Below, in pieces: positions 18,799 through 59,615 of a DNA stretch of 64,000 nucleotides. Below the pieces are notes generated by a model. It did no database searches and was not told where the DNA came from. It was given only the letters and a program-made list of their open reading frames with translations. The translations under genes were made by a program, and so were the position numbers. The stretch spans positions 1,488,001-1,552,000 of the forward strand of contig NZ_CP082292.1 in NCBI RefSeq assembly GCF_019880205.1. Direction: 5' to 3'. Numbering within the stretch: the stretch's first letter is position 1; each line of letters opens with the position of its first letter. Source of the DNA: Pantoea alfalfae (GTDB lineage Bacteria > Pseudomonadota > Gammaproteobacteria > Enterobacterales > Enterobacteriaceae).

Positions 18799-18874
18799 TG
18801 GCTCCTCTGACTGGACTCGAACCAGTGACATACGGATTAACAGTCCGCCGTTCTACCGACTGAACTACAGAGGA
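18799..18874 (-). tRNA. tRNA-Asn (GTT)
   Basis: A 76-base tRNA on the minus strand with CCA encoded. On the given strand it reads from TGGCTCCTCTGACTGGACTC to CTGAACTACAGAGGA. The acceptor stem TCCTCTG pairs with CAGAGGA, the anticodon is GTT in the loop CTGTTAATC, and the T-arm is GGTTCGAGTCC. It matches enteric tRNA-Asn and is identical to the copy at 44283-44358. Confidence 0.97.
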
Positions 18875-44282: not shown

Positions 44283-44358
44283 TGGCTCCTCTGACTGGAC
44301 TCGAACCAGTGACATACGGATTAACAGTCCGCCGTTCTACCGACTGAACTACAGAGGA
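44283..44358 (-). tRNA. tRNA-Asn (GTT), second copy
   Basis: 76 bases, identical to the gene at 18799-18874, with CCA encoded and anticodon GTT. Flanks differ between the two copies except for the terminator and a short upstream stretch. Confidence 0.97.
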
Positions 44359-49724: not shown

Positions 49725-49761
49725 GGGCGCTTGCAGCGGGCTGAGGTTAAGCTTTGCAGCG

Positions 49762-50011
49762 CGTTCACCTGAGAAGGTGACGCCCGCCAGGCGTATGGGA
49801 GTTTCAGGTTGCCCGAGCAGGCGGACGCGTCAAGGGGCGGACGCCCGCCCCTTAACAATCCCGGCGTCCGGCAGCCTGCGCGCCCCGCTTCGCGGGGTAC
49901 CTTCGTCACGCCCTGCGGCCAGCGGACCGTCCTTTCGCCGACGTCCTGTCGGCTCATCTTCGCCTCCGGTTGTTCCTCAGCGCTCCGGATGCCTCTCCAA
50001 AACCCCCGCCT
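49762..50011 (-). ncRNA. GC-rich structured element, copy A
   Basis: About 250 bases abutting the end of nac, on the minus strand, with the same ordered set of conserved blocks as the element at 59068-59329. Blocks on the minus strand are CGCTGAG, GACAGGACGTCGGCGAA, GCGAAGCGG, GCCGGG, AAGGGG...CCCCTTG, CGCCTGC...CTGAAACTCCC and CTTCTCAGGTGAACG. Strong hairpins are present: CCCCGC/GCGGGG at 49883-49897 and AAGGGGCGG/CCGCCCCTT at 49832-49853. No convincing protein frame covers it. Whether it is transcribed is unknown; it could be a structured RNA, a mobile-element end, or a decayed repeat. Confidence 0.55.
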
Positions 50012-50732
50012 GTAAAATTTTTGTTTTTCCTGAATGAGGAGTTGTCTGCTCGCATGAGAGCCAAAGACCATCATTGAAACTAACCGCAGTTAAGTACTTA
50101 ACGTTGAGAGAAGAGATAACAGCTACCGTGTTGAGTTCCGAGCCTGTAGCTGAAAGTTATGATTAACACCCCCTAAGCGTCAGCAGCAAGCTGCTGCCGC
50201 CAAGGCCCCTGAAATCACGCCCTTTACGTCGCAGGCGCCGTAAAGCCTGCTCACCGGGGTTAAAAGGGGTTACATAAACTTCTTCATTGCTGAAAGCGGG
50301 GCTTGACTAATCAGGGAAGGGGATGGACTGGCAGTCTTTATGGGTCATCAACCGGCTACGCCGGGCGTACGGCGCCGTTTACCATCGGAGTTATATACCA
50401 CGTCATCTGGCGCCTACATGACGCCAGGGCGTCATTCAGAAGGCCGGCTGCGCACTGCTCGCCCGCCGTAATTGCTTTAAACCGGAATTACGATGAAACA
50501 TAACGTCCGCTGTGTGCCAAAAGCGGACGTCTTTTCGTGTGGCTTAAGGGGATCTGAATGGGGATCTCAGAGTATTTATTGATTCAATTGCGCAATATGC
50601 GTCTAGATATTTAGCATGAATTTTTTGTAAAACTATGGCTTTCAACATCAGCCATCTACCGTTCTGCTGTAGACAATATGAATTCCAAAAAATGCCAGCC
50701 TGTTTGCCGCTTAGGTTAAAGGCTGGCATGAG
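50012..50732. other. non-coding island margin with hairpins
   Basis: 721 bases without a convincing gene. Stems include CAGCAG/CTGCTG near 50181-50196, CTTTACG (50222-50228) with CGTAAAG (50239-50245), and ACGTCCGC (50503-50510) with GCGGACGT (50523-50530) followed by CTTTTCG, which could act as a terminator. The composition changes to AT-rich from about 50550, where the next gene's 3' flank begins. Confidence 0.4.
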
Positions 50733-57870: not shown

Positions 57871-58851
57871 TTAAGTAGCCGGCGTATTTTCAAAAGCTTT
57901 GCCGGAATGAAGCACGCCGTGGCACCAGTGGATCAGCTTTCGCATAACAGCCCCGATTGCCACCATTTTAGGTTTGCCACGCAGGCACAATTCTTCATAA
58001 AAGTTGCGCATTCGCGTATTACATCGTCTGGCACAGAGGGCGGACATGTACAGCTTCGCACGCAGCTGCGGCGATCCAATTTTAGACATCTTAGATTTAC
58101 CGCGAACGGAAGTGCCCGATCGTTTTTCCACGGGTACCACGCCCAAAAATGCGGCTGCCTGACTGGCAGACTCAAAATCATGACTACGCAGTACAACCAG
58201 CATGTTCATGCCCAATTGTGGGCCGACTGCAGGTATAGACGTCAGAAGATCATAATCAAGTTGCAGCGCTGCATGTGCTTTTATGTGAGCCTTTATTAAC
58301 TGCTCCGTGACTTTTACTTCCTCCCGGAGAATTTTCACCATGCGCAGGCAGGAGCTGATAACGTCAGAAGGCGTCTGCGTGCTCTGGTATTTTTCCAGCC
58401 GGTTTTCCTCACGTACGGCGTCGCTCAGCAATGCGTCACGCCTGCGGATAAGCGCACTGAGATGCCTGATTTCAGCAGAAGGCGGGAGCCAGCGGTGTGG
58501 CTTTTTCAATAGCGCGTAGCAGGCCAGCATGTAGGCATCTACCTTATCCGTTTTAGTCAGAATACCCATACCTCTTGCAAAATCGCGGCTGCGGTGGGGA
58601 TTTGCGAGAGAAACGTATGCGCCAGCTTCATGCAGCGAAAGAGCCAAACGTTCGTGATAAACGCCGGTTGCTTCCATAATAAGGTGAACGTCCTCCAGGC
58701 CACAGTGCTGCATTCTAAGCCAGCGGATGATATTAGCTGCTGCACTGCTGTCATTTTTTATCTTTTTGGTCCGTATACGACCCTTTATGCCATCATAGAG
58801 GATGCAAAGGTCGAGCGAGTCTTTACTTACGTCTATACCTACAGGAAACAT
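57871..58851 (-). mobile_element. IS110-family transposase (recombinase)
   Basis: A 326-residue IS110-type DEDD recombinase. The RuvC-like part has 'FPVGIDVSKDSLDLCI' (Asp), 'VHLIMEATGVYHERLALSL' (Glu) and 'ANPHRSRDFARGMGILTKTDKVDAYMLACYAL' (Asp pair). The C-terminal Tnp domain has 'LLTSIPAVGPQLGMNMLVVL' and 'GSPQLRAKLYMSALCARRC', with the serine of the second catalytic motif. Full length and intact. GGAG is spaced 7 bases before the ATG at 58851; an upstream in-frame ATG is at 58857. Related IS110 elements use a bridge RNA from the non-coding end to choose target and donor. Confidence 0.9.
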
Positions 58852-58857
58852 TTTCAT

Positions 58858-59067
58858 TCTCCTCTCACATTGACCGTCACGCCTGTTCGCCTTGTACATT
58901 CGGAGTCATGCTCCCGGTAACCGTTCAACAAAATGTGCTGGCGTGAAAGGTGAAACGGAGGGCCGCAAGCTGTCAGGCAGGATCAGTAATTCAGACTGTC
59001 CTCAGGGAGGGGCCCGGCTCACTCCGCTTCGTGTGATGGTAGCTAATCACCACATAATGTCAGATAC
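58858..59067 (-). ncRNA. candidate bridge-RNA region of the IS110 element
   Basis: 210 bases between the transposase start and structured element B carry no gene. In IS110-group elements the left non-coding end, upstream of the recombinase, encodes the bridge RNA, and this is the matching place. The region is rich in short stems, for example near 58985-59030. I cannot fold it reliably or place the element boundary, so the call rests on position and family knowledge. Confidence 0.4.
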
Positions 59068-59329
59068 AAGCGAGGGGGTGGGGAGGCCGTCAGAACCGCT
59101 GAGCGGATAAGGGATTTCAGGACGAGTGACAGGGATGTCGCGAAGAGGCGGGTTCGCGCCAGGGATGGCGCGTCCTGCTGGTCCGTCAGAAATCCGGAAG
59201 AAGCGAAGGGACCGCGAAGCGGCGGTGAAGCAGGCCGGAGCCGGGGGGCAAGGGGGCGCGGCGACTGGCGGCCCCTTGTCGGTCGCCTGCAGAGGCGGGT
59301 CTGAAACTGCCCAACTTCTCAGGCGAACG
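59068..59329 (+). ncRNA. GC-rich structured element, copy B
   Basis: About 260 bases homologous to copy A but in the opposite orientation. Ordered blocks are CGCTGAG, GACAGGGATGTCGCGAA, GCGAAGCGG, GAGCCGGGG, AAGGGG (59250-59255) pairing with CCCCTT (59272-59277), CGCCTGC...CTGAAACTGCCC and CTTCTCAGGCGAACG. The pairing blocks are kept while the bases between them differ in sequence and length, as expected of a structure-conserved element. A small Arg/Gly-rich frame runs through it but has no start signal or protein character. Confidence 0.55.
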
Positions 59330-59347
59330 AAACCCCTCTCATAGCCC

Positions 59348-59448
59348 GTTCGCGCAGCGAACAAACCGCAGCATCAGCTCTGCTGCCAGCCCGTTCGCGC
59401 AGCGAACACTCCAGCTTCAGCTCTGCAGCAGCCATTCGCGCAGCGAAC
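59348..59448. repeat. three-copy palindromic repeat GTTCGC-GCA-GCGAAC
   Basis: The 15-base palindrome occurs at 59348-59362, 59393-59407 and, with one change (ATTCGC), at 59434-59448. Intervening DNA is 30 and 26 bases and is itself similar, each holding CAGCTCTGC and GCAGC words. It directly follows element B. It looks like a small REP/BIME-type or RNA-stem array. Confidence 0.7.
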
Positions 59449-59615
59449 ACCTGTTAAGCCCGGGCTGCCAGGCCAATCATCTCAGCATGTTCGCACAACC
59501 TCAGCCCCACCCCGTTATTCCCTAAATTCATAAAGCCAAATTTTTTAGTATTTCCTGTTATCAATAATAGTTCTTAACATCGGGGAATCAGATTATGTAA
59601 AGGGAGGTAAATACC
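59449..59615 (+). promoter_or_regulatory. cbl upstream region
   Basis: An AT-rich stretch from about 59515 should hold the cbl promoter. GGGAGG at 59602-59607 is spaced 8 bases from the GTG start. In E. coli cbl is activated by CysB and Nac; no site of either can be named with confidence. Confidence 0.4.

Follow-up and report, generated by a model that had tools for sequence, protein, structure and literature searches.

Why do two GC-rich sequences, diverged and inverted relatives of each other, coincide with the two edges of an island in the 64-kb stretch of DNA analyzed here (the window)? The first-pass annotation had noted both sequences and offered three options, namely a large structured non-coding RNA class, the termini of a mobile element not yet recognised, and recombination sites. 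Comparison confirms their positions, their GC-richness, and their relationship. The likeness is not due to chance, as the right-hand sequence (B), used as a query, matches other sequences of the left-hand type (A) in the genome with E values down to 1e-12.

An inverted-pair element split by an island

A and B each form one half of a single inverted-pair element of ~700 bp, split here by an island of ~8.9 kb. Searches with A and B revealed four further copies in the 4.75-Mb genome (C1:740, 1604, 1607, and 1686 kb), all unsplit, in which A and B flank a spacer of 116–187 bp, with A doubled in the 1607-kb copy; A and B are thus one element that has been pulled apart in the window. The features of the window are listed below. 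Gene calls are longest open reading frames, and gene names beyond Pfam classes come from the first-pass annotation or from recognition of the translations.

49740–50019, minus strand: half A; the RNA strand runs outward, i.e., leftwards; second GGA hairpin missing
49937–49953, minus strand: GGA hairpin of A, GCCGAC-AGGAC-GTCGGC, from direct reading of the sequence
50016–50125, no strand: left part of the element spacer, ending in ...AAGAGATAACAGC at the island start, from comparison with loci L030 and L065
50126–59067, no strand: island of ~8.9 kb within the spacer, not part of the element and missing at the orthologous locus L065; Pfam content: MFS transporter, FAA hydrolase, enolase-like, LysR, MarR, two NADP oxidoreductases, IS110
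57871–58899, minus strand: IS110-family transposase gene, at the right edge of the island
59062–59346, plus strand: half B; the RNA strand runs outward, i.e., rightwards
59118–59194, plus strand: match to TwoAYGGAY (RF01731) in B, 39.1 bits against a gathering score of 43
59126–59141, plus strand: GGA hairpin 1 of B, GTGACAGGGATGTCGC
59155–59172, plus strand: GGA hairpin 2 of B, CGCGCCAGGGATGGCGCG
59345–59455, plus strand: REP-like tail after B, three spaced (C)GTTCGCGCAGCGAAC or near-identical units, from direct reading

In a close relative (L065, flanks ~94% identical), the gap between the same two LysR genes contains A-A-spacer-B and no island. The left half in the window stops at ...GATAACAGC and the right half restarts at ...GAGGGGG, and since these two ends are adjacent in intact copies, the island was inserted into the spacer. 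A and B coincide with the island edges because the island landed inside a pre-existing element, and the apparent island with matching edges is explained by insertion into a repeat, a situation that can mislead annotation. The IS is matched in relatives over about 57898–59070, its end abuts half B, and the IS110-family element is present as a single copy in this genome. Plasmid-borne IS110 relatives end in a G-rich stretch (e.g., GAGGGGGTTGG) that is similar to the beginning of half B, a likeness that may perhaps be the reason for landing there. The window also contains two tRNA-Asn genes of equal Rfam score (18799–18874 and 44283–44358), which are possible integration sites.

Two of the three options from the first-pass annotation do not survive these comparisons. 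Ends of a mobile element are rejected, as both orthologous and paralogous copies enclose a short spacer without cargo and the site in the relative is uninterrupted. Recombination sites are likewise disfavored by the relative, in which the site holds a pair with a short spacer and no cargo, and by the lack of a phage or viral relative. The other copies also carry no cargo. Neither phages nor viral contigs were among the element matches, and a phage or viral origin is rejected. Protein coding was also dismissed, the overlapping open reading frames being frame readings of the repeat. REP-like (C)GTTCGCGCAGCGAAC palindromes, spaced or tandem, adjoin half B in the window (59345–59455) and at L031:8320–8680, and similar tails follow other element copies; the 1607-kb copy carries a ~70-bp tandem array.

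A covarying structure containing the TwoAYGGAY motif

Alignments of 22 A units and 20 B units, each ~260 nt long, support a multi-branch fold in which 86% (A) and 84% (B) of cells are paired. Cells changed on both sides in a compensatory manner number 60 in A and 74 in B, against 20.6 and 35.9 expected, and these values were reached in 0 of 500 shuffles. Sliding the partners lowers pairing from 86/84% to 34–45%, a control that is biased toward the fold because the latter was derived from sequences overlapping those tested. The blocks GACAGG..CGTCGGC, GCGAAGCGG, AAGGGG..CCCCTT, and CTGAAACT, singled out in the first-pass annotation, are conserved columns across the genus alignments. The outward strand is the one that folds better (−129.8 versus −119.7 and −128.8 versus −115.0 kcal/mol for the two halves, outward versus inward). 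With the fold limited to G-C and A-U pairs, the ratio of G-U to A-C is 64:56 in A and 116:71 in B, and this small excess makes the strand test a weak one and points to moderate single-strand selection. Folding was also compared with shuffled sequence, as the first-pass annotation had proposed; B stands out clearly (z = −3.2, outward), whereas A reaches only z = −1.5 (outward).

When an intact copy is compared with Rfam, TwoAYGGAY (RF01731) is found in both halves on the outward strand. This RNA motif has γ-Proteobacteria already on its list (PMC2864571). The whole genome yields nine RF01731 hits, all within these halves and outward only; the three that pass gathering (43 bits) are A-type copies with 47–48 bits, while the B half in the window lies below it, as do the genome's remaining B copies, and the A half in the window gives no hit. 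The Rfam family emerges via the intact copies; the 64-kb window at gathering gives only tRNAs. In this genome and its relatives, 19 matches reach gathering over 18 loci, and matches in the genus usually score near gathering, mostly covering model positions 43–123. The rest of the unit, including the 3′ stem AAGGGGC..GCCCCTT and CTGAAACT, appears, as far as seen, to be a genus-specific extension.

Each unit consists of a TwoAYGGAY-type domain, i.e., a multi-branch stem with two A(N)GGA-loop hairpins, and a conserved 3′ domain. As in TwoAYGGAY, two adjacent GGA-loop hairpins share a covarying stem and many copies pass gathering; the loops AGGAC, AGGGAT, and ATGGAT, which are not strictly AYGGAY, sit on changing stems. 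Unlike the motif as known, the Pantoea element forms outward inverted pairs of diverged A and B types, has a conserved 3′ domain beyond the matched part of the model, lies mainly in convergent gaps, and is homogenised within genomes. We are nearly certain that it is a dispersed TwoAYGGAY-containing element, and the conserved covarying structure and the match to a curated RNA family together support the remaining option, a large structured non-coding RNA class. The motif itself is known, and the paired, homogenised, 3′-end architecture is a variant for which we found no description; no paper describing the element was found in the open-access literature.

Distribution, gene context, and concerted evolution

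The element is present in 28 of 60 relatives searched, with every hit within the genus. A 27-base pattern containing a signature of 20 bases matches Pantoea agglomerans, ananatis, stewartii, allii, anthophila, septica, eucrina, and other species, as well as Mixta mediterraneensis and [Erwinia] mediterraneensis; three further titles are strays (Comamonas, a Verrucomicrobia MAG, and a record titled Enterobacter ludwigii). Four Pantoea plasmids are also among the element matches. In the clusters fetched, the halves nearly always face outward and A and B remain distinct types; where A or B is present in extra copies, these are tandem duplications that keep its outward direction. Convergent genes surround 37 of the 61 clusters with both neighbors, compared with 14 of 169 other gaps at the same loci, and divergent genes surround 3 of the 61. 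The spacer ranges from 61 to >400 bp, is variable in its interior, and is conserved only at its edges; the L032 and L063 spacers are expanded by a tandem AAAGCC hexamer. Within most genomes, the element keeps a coherent orientation with respect to dnaA and dif, and the sense is opposite between groups, being against the fork in G022 (9/9), G006 (7/7, no dif match, terminus assumed), and G027 (4/4), with the fork in G000 (5/5), G016 (4/4), and G005 (5/5), and mixed in G024. A replichore-polarised orientation was therefore set aside.

Seven genomes have up to five sites in common (speF|mltC, two LysR genes, acyltransferase|putA, permease, and amn). In trees built from the halves, 9 and 8 changes are needed for genome labels (minimum 6; 25.4 and 18.1 when shuffled), and 19 and 19 for site labels (23.5 and 16.5 when shuffled). 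Genome-mates are more alike than positional counterparts, which is concerted evolution, by gene conversion or by repeated copying into the same sites. Copies at constant positions that evolve in concert, as rRNA operons do, suggest an RNA product of importance. Where the element is missing from the speF|mltC site, the relatives concerned have different palindromic or terminator-like sequences at its mltC end. A further palindrome family of Pantoea (GGTGGGCATAAATGCCCACC, GGTCGCCATTTATGGCGACC) lies downstream of mltC at L179–L181 and in the L121 spacer, occupying places where the element is absent.

Paired GGA loops and a candidate CsrA-binding role

CsrA sites follow the pattern of a GGA in a hairpin loop, often paired because CsrA is a dimer, and TwoAYGGAY was proposed as a CsrA binder by motif matching (PMC4333381). 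Read outward, 96% of A units and 89% of B units have at least two GGA hairpins, versus 9% and 3% inward, and the motif A(N)GGAY occurs 4.0–4.1 times per unit outward, versus 1.0 in shuffles and 0.8–1.4 inward. Simple counts of GGA do not exceed those of shuffles, and the enrichment is limited to the motif in context. This genome has 45 A(N)GGAY motifs in its 11 half-units and 10 in its CsrB. The CsrB covariance model (RF00018) gives C1:854063 (219.8 bits) and two weak hits, none of them in the elements. On these sequence features, the units probably bind CsrA.

Our best reading, to which we assign a probability of about 0.5, is that the dispersed element yields CsrA-binding RNA in both directions by transcription from neighboring genes; both the binding and the transcription are inferred. 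Two diverged, outward-facing units flank a short variable spacer, and each unit, when transcribed outward, would most likely bind CsrA (RsmA) dimers at its paired GGA hairpins. Run-on from either neighbor would read one half antisense and then produce the other in sense. As the halves face opposite ways and usually lie between convergent genes, the transcripts of both neighbors would carry a CsrA-binding 3′ end, which would titrate CsrA or be acted on by it, while gene conversion or recurrent copying would keep the copies alike within a genome. Run-on is favored over promoters of the element's own because no promoter-like site occurs in the L030 spacer or halves and the spacer interior is unconserved; titration by such run-on 3′ ends is nevertheless tentative, at somewhat less than even odds. 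A sponge distributed over Pantoea chromosomes, in which several inverted pairs in 3′ gaps turn the run-on of their neighbors into CsrA-binding RNA, are kept uniform by gene conversion, and together offer more CsrA sites than CsrB, is more doubtful; if it exists, transcription at particular loci would be sensed through the activity of CsrA.

The convergent-gene bias could also be that of a bidirectional 3′-end element that mainly terminates and protects convergent transcripts, through Rho-dependent termination on the C-rich inward strand and structured 3′ ends, with the GGA loops secondary. Consistent with this, the sequences at mltC in relatives without the element are palindromic or terminator-like, L030, L031, and L032 showed no intrinsic terminator in their convergent gaps, and an inward rut-like C>G stretch exceeds a ratio of 1.5 in 99% of units versus 40% of controls. 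However, the inward skew mirrors the high G content of the opposite strand, and overall 30 of the 37 gaps bearing the element have terminator-like sites, a rate matched by shuffles, which gives no support to a need for the element as a terminator. This explanation also does not account for the conservation of GGA loops in the outward reading, and we consider it unlikely.

The outward geometry of nearly all clusters, with the outward strand as the structured one, would also suit two independent CsrB-like small RNAs driven outward by divergent promoters within the spacer. The element resembles CsrB/CsrC/RsmB, the CsrA-titrating small RNAs, in having many GGA hairpins in one RNA; it differs in lacking a CsrB model match and a recognisable promoter or terminator, and in its several, paired copies. 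A scan restricted to sigma-70-type sites found none in the L030 spacer and halves, which also lack an intrinsic terminator, and the variable spacer, with simple tandem repeats in some copies, lends divergent promoters no support, making this improbable. We regard as similarly improbable a selfish or neutral REP/BIME-like repeat, spread by an unknown transposase, homogenised by recombination, and without a cellular role. The element is indeed dispersed and multi-copy, with tandem A or B duplications, patchy presence in the order, and avoidance of divergent (promoter) gaps, and it shares with REP/BIME the extragenic palindromic inverted pairs near gene 3′ ends and the REP-like tail palindromes. 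Yet its unit is a multi-branch covarying structure of ~260 nt rather than a palindrome of 20–40 bp, five sites are kept in several species, intact copies have no linked mobile gene that we could find, and compensatory evolution with conserved loops argues for a constrained product.

Several observations also weigh against the CsrA-binding reading. The A half in the window, which has lost one ~29-bp hairpin (CGCGCCATCCCTGGCGCG, inward reading), keeps a single GGA hairpin and reaches only the z of −1.5 given above, whereas B has both hairpins, and the genome already has a canonical CsrB. The unremarkable raw GGA counts, the small G-U excess, and the Rfam scores close to gathering over part of the model count against it as well. 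If the reading is right, the element would be a second, dispersed source of CsrA sites beside CsrB, and TwoAYGGAY, long listed and function-less, would gain a natural multi-copy system in the tractable P. agglomerans and P. ananatis. In the wider order, the RF01731 motif is found patchily, in 90 of 395 genomes, and in multiple copies, and in other families it is less tied to convergent gaps (16 of 47), a further point against the CsrA-binding reading. There, the gaps between TwoAYGGAY pairs 1–3 kb apart contain open reading frames.
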